A DNA stretch of 64,000 nt, taken from contig JARLGU010000015.1 of the NCBI GenBank assembly GCA_031292625.1, forward strand, positions 186,001 to 250,000. The letters run 5' to 3'. How positions within the stretch are numbered: position 1 is the stretch's first letter; each line of letters opens with the position of its first letter. The notes under the pieces are model-generated. The model had not been told where the DNA came from and did no database searches. It saw only the letters and a list, made by a program, of their open reading frames with translations. Position numbers and translations under genes: made by a program. This stretch comes from Capsulimonadaceae bacterium. GTDB taxonomy: Bacteria; Armatimonadota; Armatimonadia; Armatimonadales; Capsulimonadaceae. Shown here in pieces: positions 6,305 through 48,235 of this stretch.

Positions 6305-6347
6305 GGTAATCTTGAAAGGCCAGCTCAGATTGTAAAGGAGATTGCTA

Positions 6348-7451
6348 ATGACGGGAATTGCACATCTTGGAGGCGGGCTAGGAACCATCGACCGCCTTTC
6401 GACGGCGAAGACGCGCCTCATTACGGCGGAAAATGTCTACGGAGCAAAAGGGCAGGGCGGCAAGGCCGATCTTACCAAGGAGCCTCAAGCGGACGTCGAG
6501 AAGATCGGTCAGCATTGGGATGGGCCGAACACGTGCGCTCGTGAACTGGGAACGAAATGGAAGGTTCGTCCGTGCATCACGCTCCTTGCGGAGTCGACGA
6601 CGACGATCGCGGATATAGATGGTCCCGGCGCGTTTCAGCACATTTGGATCACCGTGGATCCAAAGCGCTATCGCGACCTCGTGCTTCGCATCTATTGGGA
6701 CGACGAGGCCACCCCAAGCGTCGAATCTCCGTTGGGCGATTTTTTCTGCAATGGATTTTGCACGCGGGTGAACATTCTTTCGTTGCCGATCAATGTCAAT
6801 CCGAGCGGCGGCTTCAATTGCTATTTTCCAATGCCGTTTCGCAAGCATGCTAGGGTTACGATCGAGAATCGACTTGGGGCGAATGTCGGCGGTTTCTTTT
6901 ATGCGATCACAGTGGCGCTTGGAGATGTCGCAGATGATTCCGCGTACTTTCACGCGCAATTCCGGCGAACGAATCCGTTGCCGTATGGCGAGGATTACGT
7001 GCTTCTCGATGGCGTAAAGGGCCAGGGGCAATATGTCGGCACGTATATGGCGTGGCAACAGAACAACGCTGGCTGGTGGGGCGAGGGCGAGATCAAGTTT
7101 TTCCTCGATGGCGACGGCGAATTTCCGACGCTGGCCGGGACCGGCACCGAGGATTACTTTGGCGGCGCCTGGGGCTTTGGATCGAACTTCTCCGCGCCGT
7201 TCCTGGGATATCCCCTTGGAGCGTGCGATAACCGGCCCGGCAATCGTCACGGGCTGTACCGGTTCCATATAATGGATCCTATCCGGTTCGAGGCGGAACT
7301 CAAGGTGACCATGCAGGCGATCGGGTGGCGCGGCGAAGGGCGGTATCTGCCGTTGCAAGACGACATTGCATCGGTGGCGTACTGGTACCAGACGGAGCCT
7401 CACGCGCCGTTCGCTCCGCTTGGGGACCGGAATGTGTTGGAAGTCATTTAG
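6348..7451 (+). CDS. GH172 (DUF2961) family protein, copy 1
   Basis: The product is 367 residues. I chose the ATG at 6348 over an in-frame TTG at 6342 because AAGGAG sits 7 bases upstream. The protein is full length for the DUF2961 family, now glycoside hydrolase family 172, whose characterised members act on fructofuranosides or arabinofuranosides. Family features include the IYWDD...PSVESPLGDFF segment near residue 120 and a Glu-rich region at about 245-270 (WWGEGEIKFF and GTGTEDYF) likely to hold the catalytic acids. There is no signal peptide, so it is probably cytoplasmic. It is followed 74 bases later by a close paralogue and diverges from an AraC regulator. The substrate cannot be told from sequence. 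Confidence 0.85.
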   Translation: MTGIAHLGGGLGTIDRLSTAKTRLITAENVYGAKGQGGKADLTKEPQADVEKIGQHWDGPNTCARELGTKWKVRPCITLLAESTTTIADIDGPGAFQHIWITVDPKRYRDLVLRIYWDDEATPSVESPLGDFFCNGFCTRVNILSLPINVNPSGGFNCYFPMPFRKHARVTIENRLGANVGGFFYAITVALGDVADDSAYFHAQFRRTNPLPYGEDYVLLDGVKGQGQYVGTYMAWQQNNAGWWGEGEIKFFLDGDGEFPTLAGTGTEDYFGGAWGFGSNFSAPFLGYPLGACDNRPGNRHGLYRFHIMDPIRFEAELKVTMQAIGWRGEGRYLPLQDDIASVAYWYQTEPHAPFAPLGDRNVLEVI

Positions 7452-7525
7452 CGCGCTGCGATGAGTGTTCATATGATTTTCCAGGTGTGGAAGTTTGAAA
7501 CGATTTGATAATGAGGAGAACATCG

Positions 7526-8614
7526 ATGACAGGTTTAGGCCTTGGCGCCATTGATCGGCTGTCGAATGCAAAGACGCGGCTGATTACGGCGGAGAACGTT
7601 TACGGAGAAAAAGGACAGGGCGGTCGCGCCGATCTTACCGATGAGCCACAAGCGGATGTGGCTCGAATTGGGCAGCTTTGGGAGGGACCGAACAAGTGCG
7701 CCCGCGATCTCGGCCAAAAGTGGAAGGTGAGACCCTGCATAACGCTGGCCGCTGGAAGTACGACAACCTTAGCGGATGTCAACGGTCCGGGCGCAATCCA
7801 GCACATATGGGTGACCGTGGACTCGAGGCGCTATCGCGACCTTATTCTCAGGATCTACTGGGACGGAGAAACTGTCCCAAGCGTCGAAGCTCCGCTAGGC
7901 GATTTTTTCTGCAACGGCTTTAACAAGCGCGCAAATATTCTCGCGCTGCCGATCAACGTTAACCCGAGCGGAGGCTTCAATTGCTATTTCCCGATGCCGT
8001 TTCGTAAGCATGCTCGCGTTACGATCGAAAACCGGCACGTCGAGAATGTCGGCGGCCTGTACTACGCGATTACGTTGGCTCTAGACTCGGTCGATGACGA
8101 TGCCGCCTATTTCCACGCACAGTTCCGAAGGACAAATCCCCTCCCATACGGTCAGGACTACGTCATCCTCGAAGGCGTTAAAGGGAAGGGCCATTATGTC
8201 GGCACGTATATGGCGTGGCAGCAGAACAACGCCGGCTGGTGGGGCGAGGGCGAAATCAAGTTCTTCTTAGATGGCGACGGCGAATTTCCGACGCTGGCCG
8301 GAACCGGCACCGAGGACTACTTCGGCGGCGCGTGGTGCTTCGGATCGAACTTCTCCGCGCCGTTCTTGGGCTATCCTCTCGGCGAGTGCGATAACCGGCC
8401 CGGCAACCGCCACGGGCTGTACCGGTTCCATATAATGGATCCTATCCGGTTCGAGGCGGACCTCAAGGTGACGATGCAGGCGATCGGATGGCGCAGCGAA
8501 GGGCGGTATCTGCCGTTGCAAGATGACATTGCATCTGTAGCGTACTGGTATCAGACGGAGCCTCACGCGCCGTTCGCCCGGCTTGGGGACCGGAATGCGC
8601 TGGAAGTCATTTAG
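7526..8614 (+). CDS. GH172 (DUF2961) family protein, copy 2
   Basis: The product is 362 residues. The ATG at 7526 is chosen because GAGGAG precedes it by 7 bases; the longer frame from 7505 would begin inside the leader. It is a tandem paralogue of the gene at 6348, with the same motifs (PSVEAPLGDFF, WWGEGEIKFF, GTGTEDYF). Differences concentrate in the first 230 residues, while the last third is almost identical in protein and partly in DNA: 50 bases at 8411-8460 match 7248-7297 exactly. This suggests recent duplication or gene conversion with a diverging N-terminal half. A strong terminator follows. The two copies may act on related substrates or form a hetero-oligomer (inference). Confidence 0.85.
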   Translation: MTGLGLGAIDRLSNAKTRLITAENVYGEKGQGGRADLTDEPQADVARIGQLWEGPNKCARDLGQKWKVRPCITLAAGSTTTLADVNGPGAIQHIWVTVDSRRYRDLILRIYWDGETVPSVEAPLGDFFCNGFNKRANILALPINVNPSGGFNCYFPMPFRKHARVTIENRHVENVGGLYYAITLALDSVDDDAAYFHAQFRRTNPLPYGQDYVILEGVKGKGHYVGTYMAWQQNNAGWWGEGEIKFFLDGDGEFPTLAGTGTEDYFGGAWCFGSNFSAPFLGYPLGECDNRPGNRHGLYRFHIMDPIRFEADLKVTMQAIGWRSEGRYLPLQDDIASVAYWYQTEPHAPFARLGDRNALEVI

Positions 8615-37483: not shown

Positions 37484-37509
37484 GTTTGCGTTGTATCCGC
37501 GGAGGGTAA
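37484..37509 (+). promoter_or_regulatory. SigB-type promoter before the secreted protein gene
   Basis: GTTTGC (37484-37489), a 14-base spacer and GGGTAA (37504-37509) match the GTTT-N13-15-GGGTAW pattern seen repeatedly in the island. The predicted leader is about 115 bases and contains the conserved element. Confidence 0.5.
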
Positions 37510-37564
37510 AACTACACAAGGTGATCGATGCGGCATCGCATGCCGCGCAGCGCCTGACGTCTTG

Positions 37565-37629
37565 TCCTCCCGGATCAATTCGCCCTCTCAATTTCCACGT
37601 AGCCGGGTGCGCCTGAAAGGCTAACGCCC
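37565..37629 (+). promoter_or_regulatory. Conserved leader RNA element, copy 1
   Basis: This element is shared with 44350-44412: the block TCCTCCCGGA, exactly 20 variable bases, the identical CCACGTAGCCGGGTGCGCC, then AAAGGC. CCGGG (37603-37607) can pair with the upstream CCCGG (37569-37573). Alternatively GGGTG (37605-37609) pairs with CGCCC (37625-37629), together with the inner GCC/GGC, enclosing the AAAGG ribosome binding site at 37616-37620. The two pairings exclude each other. I infer a cis-acting translational switch; no known riboswitch class could be assigned by eye. Confidence 0.6.
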
Positions 37630-37633
37630 AATT

Positions 37634-38575
37634 ATGTTGAACCCGAATTTACCGAGCCGCGCGCATCGGCGGCTTCCAATTTCCAAGTGTTTCGTTCGAT
37701 ACTCAATTGCCTTGGCGATAGTTGCGACGACGTCGCTATCCGCGACCACTGGACTGCGAGCTCAAACCGTAGCCGCCGCGAACACGGACAGAATGACGCT
37801 GGCGAGCGGGACGATTATCCCGGTGATCCTCGACACCGAGTTGTCGACGAATAAGAGCTTTTGGGGCGACACCTTCACCGCGTCCATCGACAAGAGCCGG
37901 GAAGCCTACTGCAATATCTTGCCGGGTGCGTCCATCAAGGGCGTCGTACGCGTGTCGTCGTCGCTAAATGGCAACGATCCTGGCATACTCGAGCTTGCCT
38001 TCACGAGTATGCGCATGGCTGACGGAACAACATACCCCTTGTCCGGATCGGTTATGAACATGGACGCCGGGCAGTTCACGATCAGCAGTAAGGGCCTATT
38101 GCTGGCCAAGAGCCCAGGCCAGAATAGACGTCTTACGTTCGTCGGCGTCGGTTATGGCTCATCAGCGCTTGTAAGCGCCCCGGATGGGGGAAAGCTATCG
38201 CTTAAGGATCTCGCAATGGTTGGTATCGCGGATTACGATGCGCACTCCGCTCTCGCGAACCCGGATCGTTTGCACGACGTCGATTTGAAACCAGGAACGC
38301 CGATGGGAGTTCTCCTTATAGATCAGCTTAGCTTTTCTCTTGGAGCAAAGGTGAACGCATCGACTCCGATGTACCATCGCATTGCCGTACGAGATGGCAC
38401 GAAGTACTATCAGTTCCACGGACGTTCCTGGGCGCTGGATTTGGCGACGGGAGACCGGTATCCTACGTCGAGCGTTGCTCCGGTCATGGGGATGCCTAAC
38501 GGCAAGTACTACAGCTTTCTGGGCCACGCTTACTACATGGACCCCGATACGGGCGAACGTACGCAACTCGATTAA
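37634..38575 (+). CDS. Secreted protein of unknown function with TrbI-like beta domain
   Basis: The 313-residue protein has a signal peptide (FVRYSIALAIVATTSLSATTGLRAQ, about residues 20-44). The following domain, MTLASGTIIPVILDTELSTNKSFWGDTFTASI...LPGASIKGVVRVS, resembles the small beta-barrel seen in TrbI/VirB10-type proteins and in secreted proteins of several phyla; this is a loose match. The C-terminus holds two similar units, KYYQFHGRSWALDLATGDRY and KYYSFLGHAYYMDPDTGERT. It is preceded by a SigB-like promoter and a leader element shared with the SPFH gene. A strong terminator follows. Probably exported; role unknown. Confidence 0.75.
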   Translation: MLNPNLPSRAHRRLPISKCFVRYSIALAIVATTSLSATTGLRAQTVAAANTDRMTLASGTIIPVILDTELSTNKSFWGDTFTASIDKSREAYCNILPGASIKGVVRVSSSLNGNDPGILELAFTSMRMADGTTYPLSGSVMNMDAGQFTISSKGLLLAKSPGQNRRLTFVGVGYGSSALVSAPDGGKLSLKDLAMVGIADYDAHSALANPDRLHDVDLKPGTPMGVLLIDQLSFSLGAKVNASTPMYHRIAVRDGTKYYQFHGRSWALDLATGDRYPTSSVAPVMGMPNGKYYSFLGHAYYMDPDTGERTQLD

Positions 38576-38590
38576 TATTTACATGATTAA

Positions 38591-38625
38591 ACGCCTTCGG
38601 CCAGACTGGCCGAAGGGCGTCTTTT
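38591..38625. terminator. Rho-independent terminator
   Basis: ACGCCTTCGGCCAG pairs with CTGGCCGAAGGGCGT (one bulged G) and is followed by CTTTTTGGGT. It ends the secreted-protein gene and lies next to the convergent NRAMP stop. Confidence 0.85.
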
Positions 38626-38635
38626 TGGGTATGCT

Positions 38636-39964
38636 TCATTTGCCCCAAGTCGCGAACAACCCGATCGCCGCCGCTCCCATGACGAAGGTTGCGGCCCAGC
38701 CGAGAACTCTGCTCCTTCGCCCCAACGTAAATTGCCCCATGATTTTCTGGCTCTGGCCCATTAGCATCATGATAAACATGATAGGGGCTGCGACGACGCC
38801 GTTGATGACCGCGGACCAAAACAGGGCTTTGATTGGGTTCAGGTCGAAGAAATCGAGCGCGAGGCCGATGAACATCGAGACCGCAATAACCGCGTAGAAA
38901 CGTTTCGCATGCGGGAATGTCTTGCTCAAACCGACTCTCCACTGCAACGCTTCGCCGACAGCGTATGCCGCCGATCCTGCAAGCACGGGCAACGCCAGCA
39001 AGCCGGTGCCGATGATTCCCAATGAGAAGAGAAGAAACGCAAAATGACCCGCGATCGGTCGAAGAGCTTCCGCGGCCTGGGTCGAAGTCTGGATGTCCGT
39101 GATCCCATGCAAGTGAAGAGTCACCGCCGTTGTCAGAATGATGAAAAACGACACAAGGTTAGAGAATGCCATCCCCGCATAGGTGTCCACGCGAATCCGG
39201 TGCAGCTGAACTTGGGCCTGTCGTGGCGCTTGCTTTAGCGGATGCTCCTTCGGGTTTGCCTTCTCGATCTCGACCTCTTCCTGGGCCTGCCAGAAGAAGA
39301 GGTACGGACTGATCGTTGTTCCCAATACAGCGACAATGCTCGTCACGGCGGCGACGTTTAGCGCCAATGACGGCACCACGGTCGCGCGCAGCGCCGCTCC
39401 CCACGGCACGTGGACGACGAACACGGTTGCCACGTACGCGAAGAGCGCAGCGCACATCCACTTCAATACGCCCGCGTATTTTTCATACGCCATCACCGTT
39501 TCGAGCGCGGCCGATCCGAGTGCGAAGAGCGCAGCGTAGATGAGTGCGGAACCGCCTATTAGGAGCTTCATTGCCGCTCCCATCGCGCCGATGTCAGCGC
39601 CGAGATTGATGATGTTGGCGATTAGCATCAGGTTGACAAGAATGAATAGCACATTGGGCGGGTAGTACAGACGCAGGTTTCCCGCGATGCCTCGTCCAGT
39701 TACGCGGCCGATCTGCCCGCTGATTTCCTGAATCCCGCACATCAACGGATACGAAAACAGCATCACCCAAAGCATCGAAAACCCGAATTGCGCGCCGACC
39801 TGCGAGTACGTTGCGATCCCGCTTGGGTCGTCATCGGCAGCGCCTGTAATCAGGCCAGGCCCGAGGCTTCGCAGCAATCCTCCTTTGGTAACGCCCTTTG
39901 AAAGAGTCGGATGGGTGAAATCGTTTGGACTGTGTTCCGGATATAGAGGGTCTGTTGACGACAT
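38636..39964 (-). CDS. NRAMP family divalent metal transporter, divergent subfamily
   Basis: The product is 442 residues from the ATG at 39964 (MSSTDPLYPEHS), with a longer frame rejected because GGAA fits this start. About eleven membrane helices follow. Helix 1 carries GAADDDPSGIATYSQ, where canonical NRAMP proteins have DPGN. Helix 6 carries GTTISPYLFFWQAQEE, where canonical proteins have an MPH motif whose Met favours Mn and Fe over Mg and Ca. Both changes place it in a divergent branch whose metal is uncertain; Mg or a broader divalent range is possible. It lies downstream of the Gln-rich lipoprotein gene on the same strand, separated by a terminator. Confidence 0.85.
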   Translation of the reverse strand: MSSTDPLYPEHSPNDFTHPTLSKGVTKGGLLRSLGPGLITGAADDDPSGIATYSQVGAQFGFSMLWVMLFSYPLMCGIQEISGQIGRVTGRGIAGNLRLYYPPNVLFILVNLMLIANIINLGADIGAMGAAMKLLIGGSALIYAALFALGSAALETVMAYEKYAGVLKWMCAALFAYVATVFVVHVPWGAALRATVVPSLALNVAAVTSIVAVLGTTISPYLFFWQAQEEVEIEKANPKEHPLKQAPRQAQVQLHRIRVDTYAGMAFSNLVSFFIILTTAVTLHLHGITDIQTSTQAAEALRPIAGHFAFLLFSLGIIGTGLLALPVLAGSAAYAVGEALQWRVGLSKTFPHAKRFYAVIAVSMFIGLALDFFDLNPIKALFWSAVINGVVAAPIMFIMMLMGQSQKIMGQFTLGRRSRVLGWAATFVMGAAAIGLFATWGK

Positions 39965-40007
39965 GAAGGGTTCCAGTTGAAGAAAGTCGGTGCATGAGAC
40001 ACCAAAG

Positions 40008-40033
40008 GCCGGGGATCTCAATGTCTCCCCGGC
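40008..40033 (-). terminator. Terminator of the Gln-rich lipoprotein gene
   Basis: GCCGGGGA and TCCCCGGC form a perfect 8-base stem, followed on the minus strand by CTTTGGTG. It lies 30 bases past the lipoprotein stop. Confidence 0.6.
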
Positions 40034-40062
40034 TATATTGCGGCGCCATTTAGCCTCGATTC

Positions 40063-42273
40063 TCAATGATCGTTAGGCCGCCGATCTCCGCCTTGCTGTT
40101 GCGGCGCCTGTTTTTGCTGTTGCTGCTGCTGCTGTTGTGGCGCTTGCTGCCTCGGCTGCTGTTGTCGTTGCTGTTGCTGTTGCTGTTGCTGCTGAGGCGC
40201 TTGTTGCCTCGGCTGCTGTTGTTGCTGCTGTGGTGCTTGCTGCCTCGGCTGCTGTTGTCGTTGCTGTTGCTGCTGTGGTGCTTGCTGCCTCGGCTGCTGC
40301 TGTCGTTGCTGTTGCTGCTGCTGTGGCGCTTGTTGCCGCTGAGCTTGCTGATGTTGCTGCGGCGCTTGTTGGCGCTGAGGCGCTTGCTGCCTCGGCTGCT
40401 GTTGGTGTTGCTGTTGCTGCTGAGGCGCTTGTTGCCTCGGCTGCTGTTGTCGTTGCCGTTGCTGCTGAGGCGCTTGTTGCCTCGGCTGCTGTTGTCGTTG
40501 CTGTTGCTGTTGCGCTTGTTGCCTCGGCTGCTGTTGTCGTTGCTGTTGCTGTGGTGCTTGCTGTCTCGGCTGCTGTTGGTGTTGCTGAGGCGCTTGCTGC
40601 CGCTGAGCTTGCTGGTGTTGCTGCTCGCCTTGCTGCCTCGGCTGCTGCTGCCGTTGCTGTTGCTGCTGCTGACCTTGTTGTCGCTGAGCTTGCTGGTGTT
40701 GCTGCTGGTGTTGCTGCTGACCTTGTTGTCGCTGAGCTTGCTGGTGTTGCTGCTGACCTTGCTGCCGCTGAGCTTGCTGGTGTTGCTGCTGACCTTGCTG
40801 CCGCTGAGCTTGCTGGTGTTGCTGCTGGTGTTGCTGCTGACCTTGCTGCCGCTGAGCTTGCTGGTGCTGCTGTGGCGCTTGTTGCTGTTGCTGCTCGCCT
40901 TGCTGCCTCGGCTGCTGCTGCCGTTGCTGTTGCTGCTGCTGACCTTGTTGGCGCTGAGCTTGCTGATGTTGCTGCTCGCCTTGCTGGCGCTGAGCTTGCT
41001 GGCCCTGCTGCTGGCCTTGTTGGCGCTGAGCCTGCTGGTGTTGTTGCGGCGCTTGTGGTCGCTGGGTCTGCTGGCGCTGCTGCGGCGCTTGTTGTCGCTG
41101 AGCTTGCTGGTGTTGCTGTTGCTGCTGCTGACCTTGTTGTCGCTGAGCTTGCTGGTGCTGCTGCTGACCTTGCTGCCTCGGCTGCTGCTGTCGTTGCTGT
41201 TGCTGACCTTGTTGGCGCTGAGCTTGCTGGTTCTGCTGAGGCGCTTGTGGTCGCTGGGTCTGCTGGCGCTGCGGATTGTTGCCGGCGGCGTTGTGCTCTG
41301 GATTTACCCCGGGCATCTCGTGCGCTTGGCCTTGATGCGTCGCGCCGGAGTTGCGATCTCCGGAAGGGCCCGCTGCGGCATTGGGACGCGGCGAATTCTC
41401 GTCGTGCCACGCTCGAGCTGGCGACCGGTGGTCGCTGTAGACCTTCTCGTCATGAGCCCACTGCTGGCGGGGGACCATTGCTTCCGCCGGCGGGGTGACG
41501 GTGACGTAAGCCGTCGTTCGGTGCCCGTTTTGTTCGTAGGAAATGGGCACGCGACGATTTTCCTGGCGGTATGGCCAGCGCTCAGTGCGGTTGTTGCCCT
41601 GATAGCCGTAGTACCACGCGGGACCGGAGCCCTCGTTTTCGTTGAGCACGAAATAGGCGCCGATCAGGATGGGGACGGAGACCAACCAGTCGTTATGGCG
41701 CCAGTGCCGGTCGTATTTGTTGGGATCGCTGTAGTACGCCGGCTCATTGTGGATCGTAAAGGACACGTCGCCATCGTCGATCACGGGGCAGTCGTCCTGG
41801 TCAGGATCGTAGCGGCTGTAGTCGCCGTCCCGGTCGCAGTCGTAGTAGCGGTCGGACTGGTCGTCGACGAAGTTCATATAGTAGCGGTCGCGATGGCGCA
41901 ATACACGATAGTAGCGGTCGCGGGTGTGATCGTAATAGAGCGGATAGTTTTGCTCGGTGACTTTATCGTAATAAGCGGGATAGATGTGTCCGCGCGCATC
42001 GCGGCCGATATGGTAATACCGGCCGTCGTCGTCTGTTAGATAAGGAAGACCGTTCCGGTGGACGATGTGTAGATAGCGGTGTTTGTGAGGCGCAACCGCA
42101 GGTTTCGGCGCGGTTTGCTCAACCAGGTCGTAAGGCTGGAAATCCGGCGCCGGGGCTGCCGCGGTATTGACGGTTACTTGGGGATTGACGGGTGTGACTG
42201 TGCTGTGATGTGTACAGCCTGCCACGCTCAATCCCGCGACGCTGATAACAGCGCCGATCAAAATACGTTTCAT
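40063..42273 (-). CDS. Lipoprotein with Tyr-rich domain and long Gln-rich repeat tail
   Basis: The product is 736 residues from the ATG at 42273, with CGGAG 8-9 bases upstream. MKRILIGAVISVAGLSVAGC ends in a lipobox, so the mature protein is lipid-anchored at Cys20. Residues about 50-170 are rich in Tyr, His, Arg and Asp with repeated YY or RYY pairs (DGRYYHIGRD, RDRYYRVLRHRDRYYMN). A hydrophobic segment (WLVSVPILIGAYFVLNENEG) lies near residue 215. From about residue 340 to the end the chain is nearly pure Gln, Arg, Pro, His and Ala in QQ, QAQRQQG and QQPRQQAP units, about 400 residues of likely disorder. Only the minus frame has a signal, lipobox and varied N-domain, so I trust it over the long open plus frames. 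Function unknown; an envelope or matrix role is possible. Confidence 0.78.
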   Translation of the reverse strand: MKRILIGAVISVAGLSVAGCTHHSTVTPVNPQVTVNTAAAPAPDFQPYDLVEQTAPKPAVAPHKHRYLHIVHRNGLPYLTDDDGRYYHIGRDARGHIYPAYYDKVTEQNYPLYYDHTRDRYYRVLRHRDRYYMNFVDDQSDRYYDCDRDGDYSRYDPDQDDCPVIDDGDVSFTIHNEPAYYSDPNKYDRHWRHNDWLVSVPILIGAYFVLNENEGSGPAWYYGYQGNNRTERWPYRQENRRVPISYEQNGHRTTAYVTVTPPAEAMVPRQQWAHDEKVYSDHRSPARAWHDENSPRPNAAAGPSGDRNSGATHQGQAHEMPGVNPEHNAAGNNPQRQQTQRPQAPQQNQQAQRQQGQQQQRQQQPRQQGQQQHQQAQRQQGQQQQQQHQQAQRQQAPQQRQQTQRPQAPQQHQQAQRQQGQQQGQQAQRQQGEQQHQQAQRQQGQQQQQQRQQQPRQQGEQQQQQAPQQHQQAQRQQGQQQHQQQHQQAQRQQGQQQHQQAQRQQGQQQHQQAQRQQGQQQHQQQHQQAQRQQGQQQQQQRQQQPRQQGEQQHQQAQRQQAPQQHQQQPRQQAPQQQQRQQQPRQQAQQQQQRQQQPRQQAPQQQRQRQQQPRQQAPQQQQQHQQQPRQQAPQRQQAPQQHQQAQRQQAPQQQQQQRQQQPRQQAPQQQQQRQQQPRQQAPQQQQQQPRQQAPQQQQQQQQQRQQQPRQQAPQQQQQQQQKQAPQQQGGDRRPNDH
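40095..41285. repeat. In-frame tandem repeat coding Gln-rich tail
   Basis: This is a low-complexity tract built from 12-base subunits. In its middle part the word GACCTTG recurs at 40671, 40719, 40755, 40791 and 40839, giving steps of 48, 36, 36 and 48 bases, all multiples of 12. All six frames are open for long stretches because stop codons are excluded by composition, which explains the spurious Leu-rich and Ala-rich frames here. Length changes in multiples of 12 would stay in frame. Confidence 0.85.
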
Positions 42274-42338
42274 ATGTCCATCTCCGTGTTGCCGTCGCAC
42301 AACAGACCACGGGGAGGGTTGTCGATGCACGTCCTATC

Positions 42339-42364
42339 TTACCCATTCCGCCGGTAGCTCAAGC
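42339..42364 (-). promoter_or_regulatory. Weak SigB-type promoter candidate for the Gln-rich lipoprotein
   Basis: On the minus strand GCTTGA, a 14-base spacer and GGGTAA lie about 70 bases before the ATG. The -35 differs from GTTT at the second base. Confidence 0.3.
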
Positions 42365-42441
42365 GAGCCTCCCTCGCACCGTGTCGGCGCTGCCGTTCAA
42401 TTTCCCGCTCAGTGCTTCTCCAACATTCAGAATGCGCCAAT

Positions 42442-42466
42442 GTTTCAATCGCGGGGACACGGGTAT
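42442..42466 (+). promoter_or_regulatory. SigB-type promoter
   Basis: GTTTCA (42442-42447), 13 bases, then GGGTAT (42461-42466) extended to GGGTATAT. It lies 38 bases before the small secreted-protein gene at 42504. Confidence 0.55.
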
Positions 42467-42503
42467 ATGCAATACACAGGATGCTCAAAATATATAAAAT
42501 ACA

Positions 42504-42758
42504 ATGAAAATTTCGAAAAACACGATTCTTGTATGGGCCATTCTGATGACTGGATGCGTGCTTGCAATGGCAGATTCAGTCAGTTCCGGGGCTACGCCGC
42601 GAAGGGGCGTTGCCGCGCAAGCTGGGGCTCCCGTACCGCGCACTCGGGTTTTCGCTGCCTCATCCGCGAAAGACGATAACTCCGCGAGTTGGAACCATCG
42701 TTATCGTCATCGGAGCAAGCATTGTCACCGGCACTCGTTGCTCACGCTCCGGTTCTAG
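42504..42758 (+). CDS. Small secreted protein with His/Arg-rich tail (84 aa)
   Basis: The protein begins MKISKNTILVWAILMTGCVLAMADS, a signal peptide (a lipobox-like TGC is present, but its position is not ideal). The mature part is Ala/Ser-rich and ends with a His/Arg cluster, NHRYRHRSKHCHRH. It resembles the product at 43992-44195 in its MKIS start, Ala/Ser middle and Trp followed by a His/Arg tail. A SigB-type promoter precedes it; the ribosome binding site is poor. The tail could bind metal or acidic polymers (inference). Confidence 0.6.
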   Translation: MKISKNTILVWAILMTGCVLAMADSVSSGATPRRGVAAQAGAPVPRTRVFAASSAKDDNSASWNHRYRHRSKHCHRHSLLTLRF

Positions 42759-42851
42759 AGGTGACTGGCTTTCCGTAAGTCCATTTCTCTGCGAAATGGG
42801 CGAGGGGAGGCCGCTGTCGTATGTTACGAAAAGTTAAGGAGGGCTACTACA

Positions 42852-43046
42852 ATGCCCAATAAAGATGTTGTAAAGGGTTTGATCAAGCAAGGAGAAGGTC
42901 GCGTCCAGGAGTTTGTCGGCAACCTGATCGATGATCCCAATTTAATGGCCAAGGGCGAAGCGAACGAGGAGACGGGCAAGGCTCAGGAGACGGTGGGCCA
43001 TCTCAAGGAAGCGGTTCATTCGGCGACGCGCACAGGCAAGCCATAA
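42852..43046 (+). CDS. CsbD family stress protein
   Basis: The 64-residue protein MPNKDVVKGLIKQGEGRVQE... is hydrophilic and helical, with the CsbD pattern G-E-x-x-K/R-x-x-V-G-x-x-x-D/N near residues 14-27 and the repeated GKAQETVGHLKEA. CsbD-like proteins are abundant stress proteins in many bacteria, and CsbD of Bacillus subtilis belongs to the SigB regulon. AAGGAGG lies 9 bases before the ATG. It may form an operon with the small gene at 43090. Confidence 0.85.
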   Translation: MPNKDVVKGLIKQGEGRVQEFVGNLIDDPNLMAKGEANEETGKAQETVGHLKEAVHSATRTGKP

Positions 43047-43089
43047 AGATATTCTCATTGCGGCTACGCTAGCATCGGAGGCAAACACA

Positions 43090-43263
43090 TTGGCAGACAA
43101 ACACGATAAACGAAAGCACCTTAAGGCGAAGGCCTCCAAAGCTATCCAGGGTCCCGAAGGAAATCTGGCGCTCATCGAAAACGAAATCAAGGCGGCAGCG
43201 GGGAATGCTCAGCAAGAGCTCGGTAAGCAACGAGCATCCGGCAATCGATCCCATCGGGGTTAA
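43090..43263 (+). CDS. Small basic hydrophilic protein (57 aa, TTG start)
   Basis: This frame starts MADKHDKRKHLKAKASKAIQ from TTG, with GGAGG 8 bases upstream, and ends in GNRSHRG. It is highly charged and without hydrophobic segments, like the CsbD protein 44 bases before it. It is followed by a strong terminator, so CsbD and this gene probably form one unit. I do not recognise a family, although the QGPEGNLALIENEIKAAAG region has a helical pattern. Confidence 0.6.
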   Translation: MADKHDKRKHLKAKASKAIQGPEGNLALIENEIKAAAGNAQQELGKQRASGNRSHRG

Positions 43264-43288
43264 CGATGCCGGTCTATCATGATAATTC

Positions 43289-43337
43289 GCGCCCACGATT
43301 CATCCATGAGAATCTGGGCGCTGAATCGTTTAGGTTT
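43289..43337 (+). terminator. Terminator after the CsbD unit
   Basis: GCGCCCA and GATTC pair with GAATC and TGGGCGC (12 pairs with one bulge, 43289-43321), followed by GTTTAGGTTTTTC. A second hairpin, TTAAGCCC/GGGCTTAA, lies at 43359-43377 in the leader of the next gene. Confidence 0.7.
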
Positions 43338-43404
43338 TTCTCTGTTAGAAGTTGCTCTTTAAGCCCGACGGGCTTAATGGAGCGTAAGGAAGATTGGCAA
43401 TGCC

Positions 43405-43902
43405 ATGATATTGCGGCTATCGCTTGACCTTCCTGAAGACGCAGCCTATATTCGCACGACGAGGAATCTTGGCCGATGTCTTCTGGAAGACTTGAAGGTT
43501 ACCGAGAGTACGATTCTTGACGTGGAAAACATTGTGGGCGAACTGTGCTCAAACGTAATTCGCCATGCCCAGTCGAAGGCTATGCACTTTCTGGTGACTC
43601 TTGAGTACTACAAGCCCAAAGTCGTTATTACCGTCAAGGATAACGGACTGGGATTCGTTATGGACGACATGCTACCGGTCGGCGCATTGCGCTCAGACGG
43701 AAATGGCGGCGAGCGCTTGGGCGGCTACGGAATGATCCTTCTCGAAGGGCTGTCCGACAGACTCGACTTCACTGAGACAGACCCGCATGGGACGACGGTG
43801 CGGGTTGAAAAGAATCTGCGCTACGAGTCGCAGGGGGACGCTGATGCCGCGACGAGGCGAGACACCGGTCATGCCGGGTTTGCGACGGTAAGCTTAGAAT
43901 GA
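43405..43902 (+). CDS. RsbW-like anti-sigma factor / serine kinase ATPase
   Basis: The 165-residue protein is a single GHKL ATPase domain of the HATPase_c_2 type. The N-box is IVGELCSNVIRHAQ (about residues 48-61), the G1 box VKDNGLGF (about 79-86), and a later GGYGMILLEGLSD forms the G2-like lid. Such proteins bind a sigma factor or phosphorylate a STAS-domain anti-anti-sigma factor in partner-switching systems. The PAS-SpoIIE phosphatase at 47012 is a natural opposing enzyme. No sigma factor or STAS gene is present in the window. Confidence 0.8.
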   Translation: MILRLSLDLPEDAAYIRTTRNLGRCLLEDLKVTESTILDVENIVGELCSNVIRHAQSKAMHFLVTLEYYKPKVVITVKDNGLGFVMDDMLPVGALRSDGNGGERLGGYGMILLEGLSDRLDFTETDPHGTTVRVEKNLRYESQGDADAATRRDTGHAGFATVSLE

Positions 43903-43938
43903 GTAGGAAACGGGCAAAGAGCGCGTGGATATTGAAAC

Positions 43939-43985
43939 GAACGCCCACAATCCCCTCTCGGGAATTTGGGCGTTCTTGCCTAACC
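43939..43985. terminator. Bidirectional terminator
   Basis: GAACGCCCA pairs perfectly with TGGGCGTTC. It sits between the convergent RsbW-like gene and the small His-tail gene. Confidence 0.7.
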
Positions 43986-43991
43986 AAGTGA

Positions 43992-44195
43992 CTACAGCCG
44001 AATGATAATGCCGCCGCCGTGACGGTGGTGGCGATGCTGATGGTGACGCCAGTTCGTGGAGCCATCAGAGGCTACTCTCGCAGCAGCAAAACTTGTGGCG
44101 CTAGAGGGGGCGGCAGCAACCGGTCCGTCGATCGCGAAAGCGCTCATAAGAGTCAACAGGAACGAGGCAACTACCAAGATTCTTGAAATTTTCAT
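43992..44195 (-). CDS. Small secreted protein with His-rich tail (67 aa)
   Basis: The ATG at 44195 has GGAG 5 bases upstream; longer frames to 44261 are not needed. MKISRILVVASFLLTLMSAFA is a signal peptide. The mature part is short, Ala/Ser-rich, and ends NWRHHQHRHHRHGGGIIIRL with seven His residues in about eleven positions. It is related in layout to the proteins at 42504 and 46451. A SigB-type promoter lies about 40 bases upstream, divergent from that of the SPFH gene. Metal binding in the envelope is a reasonable inference. Confidence 0.7.
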   Translation of the reverse strand: MKISRILVVASFLLTLMSAFAIDGPVAAAPSSATSFAAARVASDGSTNWRHHQHRHHRHGGGIIIRL

Positions 44196-44234
44196 CGTTT
44201 CTCCATTTTTTTGAATACGTCGGTAGTTTAAATA

Positions 44235-44259
44235 TATCCCGTTAGCAAGCAATCGAAAC
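44235..44259 (-). promoter_or_regulatory. SigB-type promoter, minus strand
   Basis: GTTTCG, a 13-base spacer and GGGATATAT on the minus strand. The -10 differs from GGGTAT by exchange of T and A. Confidence 0.45.
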
Positions 44260-44270
44260 ATGCGGCCGCC

Positions 44271-44297
44271 GTTTTGCGGCGTATGGTAAACGGGTAT
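44271..44297 (+). promoter_or_regulatory. SigB-type promoter of the SPFH operon
   Basis: GTTTTG (44271-44276), 15 bases, then GGGTAT (44292-44297) extended to GGGTATAT. The leader is about 110 bases and contains the conserved element. Confidence 0.55.
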
Positions 44298-44349
44298 ATC
44301 CCAATAGGTAACAGGAAGCTGGGGTCGCTTCTAATGCTCTTCGGTATGG

Positions 44350-44412
44350 TCCTCCCGGAACAACACCGTCCTTCAAATTCCACGTAGCCGGGTGCGCCAT
44401 AAAGGCAACCCG
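44350..44412 (+). promoter_or_regulatory. Conserved leader RNA element, copy 2
   Basis: The block is collinear with 37565-37629. CCCGG (44354-44358) can pair with CCGGG (44388-44392). Alternatively CGGGT (44389-44393) pairs with ACCCG (44408-44412), with the inner GCC/GGC, trapping AAAGG at 44401-44405, which is 8 bases before the ATG. The lower stem differs in sequence from copy 1 but remains fully paired. Confidence 0.6.
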
Positions 44413-44413
44413 T

Positions 44414-45391
44414 ATGAAATCGGCAAGTTCGTTATCAGTTCTCGTATTCGTAATCGTCCTGGGCGCTGGGCTCGGAGTTGACTACGCCTTGCGTGGAAGC
44501 ATTCCCGGGTGGGGGGCAAATGCGGGAGGCGTGTTGGCATTGATCGTTGCGATGGTCGTGGCGTCGTCCGTGCAGGTCGCCAATCAATGGGATCGTGCTG
44601 TCGTATTGCGTATGGGGCGGTTCCAGGCCCTTCAGGGACCGGGCCTGTTCTTCATCATTCCGATTTTCGACTCGGTTGCGATTTGGATCGATACGCGTGT
44701 CATAACGATGTCTTTCAAAGCGGAGAAGACGCTGACGAAGGATACGGTCCCGGTGGATGTCGACGCGGTGCTCTTCTGGAAGGTTCTCGATCCCAAGAAA
44801 GCGGCGCTCGATGTCGCGGACTATCAGGTAGCGATTGGATGGGCGTGCCAAACCGCACTGCGCGACGTGATTGGCAAGACGATGCTTGCGGACATGTTGG
44901 AAGGGCGGGACGCGATCAGCGGCCAGCTACAGACCATTATCGATGCACGCACGGAGCCGTGGGGAATCTCTGTTATTTCCGTTGAGGTCAAGGACGTATT
45001 GATCCCGGCATCGCTGGAAAGCGCTATGTCGATGCAGGCTCAGGCGGAGCGCGAGCGCCAGGCGAGGGTGATTCTTGGCGACTCGGAGCGGCAGGTTGCG
45101 GAGAAGTTCGGCGAGGCGTCGAAGACCTATGCGAACAACCCGGTGGCGTTCCACCTTCGTGCGATGAACATGCTCTACGAGGGCCTCAAGCAGAACTCGA
45201 CGATCGTAATCGTTCCCAGCACGGCGGTCGAGTCGATGCAGCTAGGCGGCCTCGCGGGATTGACCGCGCTCACGATGGGAATCGGGCAGGAAGGCTCGAA
45301 TGCCGACCAACGGCAGCCAACCTCGCCGACAATCGTGAACGGACTGCTTTCGACAAACGGCGTTACGACGCCGACGGGCGCCGAGGTGTAG
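44414..45391 (+). CDS. SPFH domain (slipin/stomatin-like) membrane protein
   Basis: The 325-residue protein has two N-terminal hydrophobic segments (about 8-25 and 37-55). The SPFH/band 7 domain follows: VANQWDRAVVLRMGRFQALQGPGLFFIIPIFDSVAIWIDTR is the slipin hallmark. IGKTMLADMLEGRDAISGQLQTIIDARTEPWGISVISVEVKDVLIPASL and the helical AMSMQAQAERERQARVILGDSERQVAEKF complete it. Slipins scaffold membrane microdomains and often pair with NfeD proteases, but none is adjacent. It is followed by the general-stress protein gene with a good ribosome binding site, so the two form an operon. Confidence 0.92.
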   Translation: MKSASSLSVLVFVIVLGAGLGVDYALRGSIPGWGANAGGVLALIVAMVVASSVQVANQWDRAVVLRMGRFQALQGPGLFFIIPIFDSVAIWIDTRVITMSFKAEKTLTKDTVPVDVDAVLFWKVLDPKKAALDVADYQVAIGWACQTALRDVIGKTMLADMLEGRDAISGQLQTIIDARTEPWGISVISVEVKDVLIPASLESAMSMQAQAERERQARVILGDSERQVAEKFGEASKTYANNPVAFHLRAMNMLYEGLKQNSTIVIVPSTAVESMQLGGLAGLTALTMGIGQEGSNADQRQPTSPTIVNGLLSTNGVTTPTGAEV

Positions 45392-45437: not shown

Positions 45438-46013
45438 ATGGTCAGCATGTTAGACGACAAAGAGGTAGGGTTCGATCAGGCGGTCGTGGCGAGTTACAGG
45501 AGCCACGCCGAAGCAGAGACGGCAATCCGCCGCCTAGCCGCCGATGGTCTGCCGGTAGAAACGATTTCAATTATTGGTCGCAACTTTGAGACGTACGAAG
45601 ATGTCCAGGGTTTCTATCTTCCAGGGGATGCGGCTCGCGACGGCGCTGGGCAAGGAGCCTGGCTTGGCGGCATTTTTGGCTTCATGGCGGGGGCGATGGG
45701 CTTTTTCGTCTTTCCTGGGTTCGGCGCGCTCATGGTTTTGGGACCGCTCGCCGGATTGATCGCCGGGGCAGTGGGAGGCGCTGGAGTGGGGGCGCTCATC
45801 AACGGACTGATAGCTGCGGGGATTCCAAAGGAGCATGCGATCAAATACCAGGAGCGGCTCCAGGCAGGCGAGTTCTTACTCGTCGTCCACGGCAACGCTG
45901 ACGAAGTCAAGAGAGCGCACGAGATTCTCGAAGGCACCGGGCAGACCCATCTCGTTCTGCACAGTCCGGAAACGAATCAATTGCAGGCGTCGAAAGATGT
46001 CTCGACCTGGTGA
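45438..46013 (+). CDS. General stress protein (YflT/17M-like) with glycine-zipper membrane segment
   Basis: The 191-residue protein has an N-terminal YflT-type domain (VVASYRSHAEAETAIRRLAADGLPVETISIIGRNF). A Gly/Ala-rich membrane hairpin (GAWLGGIFGFMAGAMGFFVFPGFGAL and IAGAVGGAGVGALINGLIAAGI) and a second alpha-beta unit (YQERLQAGEFLLVVHGNADEVKRAHEIL) follow. The 17M family is controlled by SigB in Bacillus subtilis. AAGGAG lies 9 bases upstream. It is second in the SPFH operon. Confidence 0.85.
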   Translation: MVSMLDDKEVGFDQAVVASYRSHAEAETAIRRLAADGLPVETISIIGRNFETYEDVQGFYLPGDAARDGAGQGAWLGGIFGFMAGAMGFFVFPGFGALMVLGPLAGLIAGAVGGAGVGALINGLIAAGIPKEHAIKYQERLQAGEFLLVVHGNADEVKRAHEILEGTGQTHLVLHSPETNQLQASKDVSTW

Positions 46014-47011: not shown

Positions 47012-48235
47012 ATGCCCGATCCTTCGTATCACACGCCTTCCGCTCTCGAAGCGGCACAGGCTAGTCAGGCGTCCGCCGAAACATTGGCGGACTCTTTGCG
47101 TATTTCGGAGCTGCGATACCGCCGCCTTTTTGAGGCGGCCCGCGACGGCATCCTCATTTTGGATGTTGGCTCTGGGAAGATCATCGATGCCAACCCCTTT
47201 ATGAGCGAACTGCTCGGGTACTCGTATGAGGAGCTGCTTGGCAAGGAACTCTGGGAAATCGGCCTGCTCGAGGACAAAAAGGCCGGGCAGAAGGCGTTTC
47301 GGCGGCTGAGGCGCGACGGCTATATCCGCTATGACGATTTGCCCCTTGAGAGCCGCAATGGCGGCCGGCGAGAGGTTGAGTTTATCTGCAACGCCTATCG
47401 TGAGAGCGGCTTTTCGGTTATCCAGTGCAATATTCGCGACGTCACCGATCGCAAACGCATCGAGGCGGCCCTGGCAATTGAGGCGCTCAAGAACGAGCGC
47501 ATTGCCGAGACTTTGCAAAGGTCCATGCTTCAAACGCCGGTGGCTGGCCGATTCCCGAAACTGGCCGTGGAAACTCTCTACCAGGCTGCGTTGAACGAGG
47601 CCGAGGTCGGCGGCGATTTCTTCGACGCCTTCGCTATCCGCGGGGGGAAGGTCGCCTTGGTTGTCGGCGACGTATCGGGGAAGGGCCTCATCGCCGCCGC
47701 GCGAACGGCGGAGGTAAAGTACGCCTTGCGCGCGTTTCTCCACATTTGCCCCGCTCCCGAGATCGCCCTCCAGCATCTGAACGAATTTATCTGCGAGGAG
47801 CACGACCAGGATCTAGATGACCAGGAAACATTCATTATCCTGTCCGTGGCGCTGCTGGATCCCGCCACTGGAGAGGTCGCTTGCGCCGCGGCGGGCGCTG
47901 AGCCATCCATTGTCCTCCGGGCAAGCGGCAAATCGGAGCTGGTTGAAGTGAGCGGAAGTCCGCTTGGCGTCATTCGTGCCGCGACATACGCACCTAAGTC
48001 GCTTCTGCTCGCGCATGGCGAGACGCTTCTCATGGCGACCGATGGTATCACCGAGGCGCGACATGACCACTCCTTCCTTGGCGTCGAGGGCATGGCCAAT
48101 CTGGCGGAGAAAGCCGGACCGTCCTCAACGTTGCAGGAGCTAAGCGCAGCCATCTATACGGGTGCGCGGGACTATGCTCACGGCGCCCTGCGCGACGATG
48201 TATGCCTACTCCTTGCTCGTCGGCAACAGCCTTAG
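47012..48235 (+). CDS. PAS domain plus SpoIIE-type PP2C phosphatase (RsbU/RsbP-like)
   Basis: The 407-residue protein has a PAS domain at about residues 35-155 (LFEAARDGILILDVGSGKIIDANPFMSELLGYSYEELLGKELWEIG) and a short helical linker (RIAETLQRSMLQTP). The SpoIIE phosphatase domain follows from about 190. Metal-site motifs are EVGGDFFDAFAIRGGKVALVVGDVSGKGLIAA and LLMATDGITEARHD. Such proteins dephosphorylate STAS anti-anti-sigma factors and thus release a stress sigma factor. Its probable antagonist is the RsbW-like ATPase at 43405. The sensor ligand is unknown. Confidence 0.9.
   Translation: MPDPSYHTPSALEAAQASQASAETLADSLRISELRYRRLFEAARDGILILDVGSGKIIDANPFMSELLGYSYEELLGKELWEIGLLEDKKAGQKAFRRLRRDGYIRYDDLPLESRNGGRREVEFICNAYRESGFSVIQCNIRDVTDRKRIEAALAIEALKNERIAETLQRSMLQTPVAGRFPKLAVETLYQAALNEAEVGGDFFDAFAIRGGKVALVVGDVSGKGLIAAARTAEVKYALRAFLHICPAPEIALQHLNEFICEEHDQDLDDQETFIILSVALLDPATGEVACAAAGAEPSIVLRASGKSELVEVSGSPLGVIRAATYAPKSLLLAHGETLLMATDGITEARHDHSFLGVEGMANLAEKAGPSSTLQELSAAIYTGARDYAHGALRDDVCLLLARRQQP

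Follow-up and report, generated by a model that had tools for sequence, protein, structure and literature searches.

Two genes in a 64-kb stretch of the genome of a Capsulimonadaceae bacterium (contig JARLGU010000015.1, positions 186,001 to 250,000; hereafter the window, which lies within a 5.8-Mb assembly), one encoding a secreted-type protein and the other an SPFH protein, are preceded by leaders that carry the same short motif. This raises the question of whether the motif is a control element and, if so, at what level it acts. As described below, the motif recurs in related genomes, and it is very probably a real and undescribed control element. Our best explanation, in which we have somewhat more confidence than doubt, is that the 5′ untranslated regions of a few SigB-type stress and envelope genes carry it as a conserved element that acts in the mRNA, through a trans-acting factor, on translation. 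Action at the RNA level is judged from position, and the translational effect and the trans-acting factor are putative.

The shared motif and its distribution

Both leaders contain TCCTCCCGGA (37565-37574 in copy A, ahead of the secreted-protein gene, and 44350-44359 in copy B, ahead of the SPFH gene), a spacer of 20 nt, an identical 19-mer, CCACGTAGCCGGGTGCGCC (37595-37613 and 44380-44398), and AAAGGC (37616-37621 and 44401-44406); direct reading found each of these where a sequence-only reading of the region had placed it. At the composition of the window, a 64-kb sequence should hold only about 0.013 same-strand repeats of 19 nt, a figure that leaves the second block at equal spacing uncounted, and chance is therefore excluded for the two window copies. 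Recent segmental duplication is ruled out for them because their flanks are unlike each other. No leader copy besides A and B was found in the window's own genome at three or fewer mismatches, and single-block copies (CGYARCCGGGTGCG, one mismatch) were not enriched relative to a reversed-pattern control.

A covariance model built from five copies (R1) and a sequence-only model built from six (R2) agreed on six convincing copies among seven genomes of the family: two in the window's genome (G000), three in G003 and one in G002. Searching relatives had yielded the four copies beyond A and B, which come from two further genera of this family and bring the genera to three in all; of the two signs that were to speak against chance or simple duplication, further copies were found and covarying pairs were not. 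Copies A and B scored 73.5 and 71.7 bits with R1 and 53.9 and 52.3 bits with R2, and with R2 the lowest-scoring of the six copies reached 44 bits, the next match in the seven family genomes 14 bits. Across 291 Armatimonadota genomes only the six stood out, the next R1 matches (29-30 bits) lying inside coding frames. We also scanned 84,980 species with a pattern that required the exact block 2, so that diverged relatives may escape, and near records may be missing (G002 is absent among the matches listed). Apart from those in G003 (contigs of the bog_944 assembly), the matches listed lay in coding sequence or in unrelated contexts. These off-family matches fell mostly within long open frames; one in Streptomyces, upstream of a molybdopterin oxidoreductase gene, resembles a GTAAC repeat of the GlnR type, and one in a viral contig was unrelated. 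On present data the motif is, as far as these searches reach, confined to one Armatimonadota family.

The six copies give the consensus CYCCCGG-N(14-17)-CAAnnTCCACGYARCCGGGTGCG, with a total length of 43-46 nt. Between pairs of copies, block 1 is on average 95% identical and block 2 91%, compared with 30% upstream of the motif, 46% in the spacer, 33% between motif and gene and 34% in the first codons; the blocks themselves are therefore under selection. The substitutions at the conserved positions (Y, Y and R) number three and are all transitions; they would suit pairing with an RNA that tolerates G-U pairs, yet prove nothing.

Genes, promoters and position relative to the start codon

Features of the two window leaders and the genes that follow them (all coordinates are window positions)
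Feature	Coordinates	Strand	Details
SigB-type promoter, copy A	37484..37509	+	GTTTGC, 14-nt spacer, GGGTAA (-10 37504-37509); consensus score against shuffled upstream sequence, p=0.007
Leader motif, copy A	37567..37611	+	Block 1 CTCCCGG 37567-37573; spacer; block 2 CAATTTCCACGTAGCCGGGTGCG 37589-37611
3′ hairpin, copy A	37605..37629	+	GGGTG 37605-37609 / CGCCC 37625-37629 (one G-U); encloses AAAGG 37616-37620; copy-specific
Gene A, 313-aa secreted-type protein	37634..38575	+	No Pfam or NCBIfam match
SigB-type promoter, copy B	44271..44297	+	GTTTTG, 15-nt spacer, GGGTAT (-10 44292-44297); score against shuffles, p=0.01
Leader motif, copy B	44352..44396	+	Block 1 CTCCCGG 44352-44358; block 2 CAAATTCCACGTAGCCGGGTGCG 44374-44396; ends 17 nt 5′ of ATG 44414
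3′ hairpin, copy B	44389..44412	+	CGGGT 44389-44393 / ACCCG 44408-44412; encloses AAAGG 44401-44405; copy-specific
Gene B, SPFH/Band_7 protein, distant HflK/HflC-like	44414..45391	+	Pfam PF01145, E=4e-37
YflT-domain stress protein, downstream of SPFH	45438..46013	+	PF11181, E=3e-11

The six copies precede three orthologous SPFH genes, two small genes leading into YflT genes (both in G003) and one secreted-protein gene. An SPFH/Band_7 gene stands behind the motif in all three genera, and orthologues of gene B (77-78% identity) occur only in the two other motif-bearing genomes of the order; the homologues of gene A within the family, found only in G002 and G006 (40-41% identity), are without the motif. 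Behind the SPFH gene of G000 and G002 come a YflT gene and then a PAS-SpoIIE phosphatase gene, with a PRC-barrel-like gene inserted ahead of YflT in G002. The window cluster also includes genes for an RsbW-like ATPase (43405-43902) and the PAS-SpoIIE phosphatase (47012-48235). The SPFH-YflT-PAS-SpoIIE surroundings are a SigB-pathway neighbourhood.

Taking GTTT-N12-15-GGGTA upstream as the mark of a SigB-type gene, we found such a promoter (GTTT-N14/15-GGGTA) ahead of four of the six copies, both window copies included (p 0.01 or less), with the -10 starting 55-63 nt ahead of the motif; the SPFH gene of G003 has a weaker SigB-type promoter in the same place. The sequence-only reading had set the two leaders about 115-125 bases after a SigB-type -10. 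That -10 is present, but the distance holds for the start codons, and the motif begins about 60 nt past the -10. Wherever the promoter can be recognised, the SigB transcript includes the motif, about 45-100 nt past the transcript start. As SigB-family sigma factors are encoded in all seven family genomes, the motif-less ones included, the motif is no hallmark of SigB as such but a further layer. From the end of the motif to the start codon there are 17 nt in the SPFH copies of G000, G003 and G002 (where the codon is ACG) and in G003_Y1, and 16 nt in G003_Y2. The earlier proposal of a shared leader element of SigB-type stress and envelope genes at the ribosome binding site is borne out by the six copies.

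Because the distance to the start codon is nearly constant while the intervening sequence is variable, and because the motif lies inside the SigB transcript wherever the promoter is evident, we favour action on translation initiation. SigB-type transcription would yield a leader of about 110-120 nt with the motif directly 5′ of the Shine-Dalgarno (SD) region and the start codon. An RNA-binding protein or small RNA may then recognise mainly block 2, aided by block 1, and the bound factor would alter ribosome access, thereby placing the SPFH, YflT-operon and secreted-protein genes under a shared post-transcriptional check. Several observations weigh against this explanation. In copy A the motif ends 22 nt before the ATG. 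The SPFH gene of G002 (G002:C1, about 7115350-7115400, minus strand) has no evident SigB-type promoter upstream, and behind its intact motif the ATG position reads ACG and codon 6 is TAG; the remaining frame is open, and a TTG further downstream may serve as the start. A near-full-length antisense complement was not found in the window's genome at three or fewer mismatches, and the trans-acting factor is a candidate only.

The motif might instead act in the DNA, as the operator of a transcriptional regulator or as a second, non-SigB promoter into the same genes. The inverted CCCGG...CCGGG suits such a role, as does the distance of 17 nt to the start codon, which would be a plausible short leader if a promoter ended in the motif. 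However, the motif lies within the SigB-type transcript wherever that promoter is evident, and the spacing between the blocks differs among copies by 3 nt. A phased dimeric operator is disfavoured because of this variation and because block 2 is non-palindromic. The candidate -35/-10 spacing of 20-23 nt matches no common sigma class to our knowledge, which also counts against a promoter, and we regard action in the DNA as unlikely.

Elsewhere in the window, a 755-aa lipoprotein-like open reading frame without a Pfam match (40063-42330, minus strand) has a C-terminal half consisting of a long Gln-rich (QQ/RQQ/HQQ) low-complexity repeat, and a 369-aa open reading frame is tandemly duplicated (6342-7451 and 7505-8614), with exact DNA stretches in common at an offset of 1163 bp.

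Pairing potential of the leaders and likeness to known systems

The six leaders offer little common structure. RNAalifold predicted a sole helix, CCCGG/CCGGG, of 5 bp and invariant, with a covariation term of zero, and the result was likewise with five copies; in this test, whose power is low with six copies and invariant blocks, covariation between copies appears unsupported for any helix. Leaders A and B are not more stable than their dinucleotide shuffles (z -1.2 and -0.4), and the only leader that folds better than its shuffles, G003_Y2, does so through a hairpin upstream of the motif. The SD is unpaired with a probability of 0.01-0.60, its partners differing among copies; a 16S sequence was not found in the assembly. 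Because no stable conserved fold exists beyond the one invariant 5-bp helix, a bound linear site fits better than a folded aptamer, and the combination of strict sequence conservation and weak structure likewise favours recognition by a trans-acting factor over a structured switch.

Several leaders have a short hairpin of differing sequence 20-45 nt ahead of the motif (for example, window 37515-37560), the one in G003_Y2 being very stable (z -3.5); across the set these hairpins are not significant. An unbiased scan over pairs of scanning windows ranked a variable-sequence upstream hairpin first (z -3.3), but the 0.6% of scanning windows with p<0.01 is the chance level. CCTCCC as an internal anti-SD was also rejected (p=0.78).

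A small riboswitch sensing a metabolite or ion would require an aptamer resembling an H-type pseudoknot, with CCCGG paired to CCGGG, a pocket formed by the CAAnnTCCACGYAR loop and UGCG, and a second helix capturing the SD. The first helix is possible in all six copies, conservation of the loop is strongly asymmetric, and the position beside the SD resembles that of translational pseudoknot riboswitches such as SAM-V (PMC6061858). Nevertheless, five of the six single-sequence ensembles, which cover nested folds only, give the CCCGG/CCGGG helix a probability of at most 0.10 (0.65 in full-length G002). Pairing of the spacer pyrimidines with the SD, as the second helix, is no better when matched than when swapped between copies (p=0.79), and the targets are stress and envelope genes of no metabolic pathway. 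A riboswitch of this kind is, in our judgement, improbable. The motif shares with SAM-II, SAM-V and preQ1 pseudoknot riboswitches a short conserved leader just 5′ of the SD and a potential helix whose loop is long and conserved, but differs from them in having no Rfam match, no covariation, no link to metabolic genes and no supported second helix. With Rfam 15, no family matched over the window at the gathering threshold and only unrelated sub-threshold matches appeared at a relaxed E-value, in line with the earlier description of the element as unassigned.

The sequence-only reading had gone further and proposed a translational switch common to the two envelope genes, in which CCGGG pairs either with the upstream CCCGG or within a downstream hairpin that traps AAAGG. 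Both 3′ hairpins do form in the isolated leaders A and B (RNAfold), and their bases are complementary in each. The hairpin is absent from the four non-window copies, however, and pairing of CCGGGTGCG with its own downstream sequence is no better than with that of the other copies (six copies, permutation p 0.9-1.0), so that the apparent keeping of structure while sequence changes is, on present evidence, a coincidence of two copies. Moreover, the hairpin of the window copies outcompetes the upstream pairing, which is possible in all copies, invariant and rarely populated, and two balanced states are not predicted. We therefore consider the two-state mechanism very improbable. The same holds for a ribosome-stalling leader peptide read through block 2 (Q-x-P-R-[S/N]-R-V-R), since, although a similar Arg-rich peptide is encoded in all copies and two of the differences are synonymous, copy B and G003_Y2 have no in-frame ATG, GTG or TTG upstream, the frame of block 1 shifts among copies and most third positions are invariant; the frame PPGxxx..NFHV[A/T]GC was likewise discarded as a leader peptide, since starts are missing and the frame shifts.

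Other known systems resemble the motif in part. RNA thermometers of the ROSE and fourU types also stand beside the SD of stress genes, but they conserve an SD-masking structure with variable sequence, whereas the motif conserves sequence and not SD pairing; an SD-masking thermometer was rejected, as the SD partners differ by copy and the 3′ hairpin occurs in two copies only. The operators of RNA-binding proteins (for example, CsrA) and the target sites of small RNAs are alike in kind, each being a short conserved site of single-stranded type in the initiation region of several co-regulated mRNAs. A CsrA/RsmA operator itself was rejected: the GGA after CCC is lost in the SPFH copy of G003 (CCCGGT), and block 2 is without GGA. 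With the leaders of the SigB general stress regulon the motif shares the GTTT-N14/15-GGGTA promoters, the YflT and SPFH genes and the nearby RsbW-like and PAS-SpoIIE genes. We know of no sequence element shared beside the start codon in the SigB regulons described.

Implications for Armatimonadota

The motif belongs in kind with the cis-acting translational leader elements, among which, as far as our searches show, it has not been described. It is possible, though doubtful, that with it a new class of translational control RNA, specific to Armatimonadota, has its first recognised member, which would act on SPFH and YflT genes downstream of SigB-type transcription, either as a compact aptamer of pseudoknot form or as an operator bound by a new RNA-binding regulator. 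A literature search found no paper pairing 'Armatimonadetes' and 'riboswitch', and post-transcriptional control in this phylum appears to have been little studied. The six aligned copies mark which bases to mutate, and the set of SPFH and YflT genes behind the motif suggests a membrane- or envelope-stress input.

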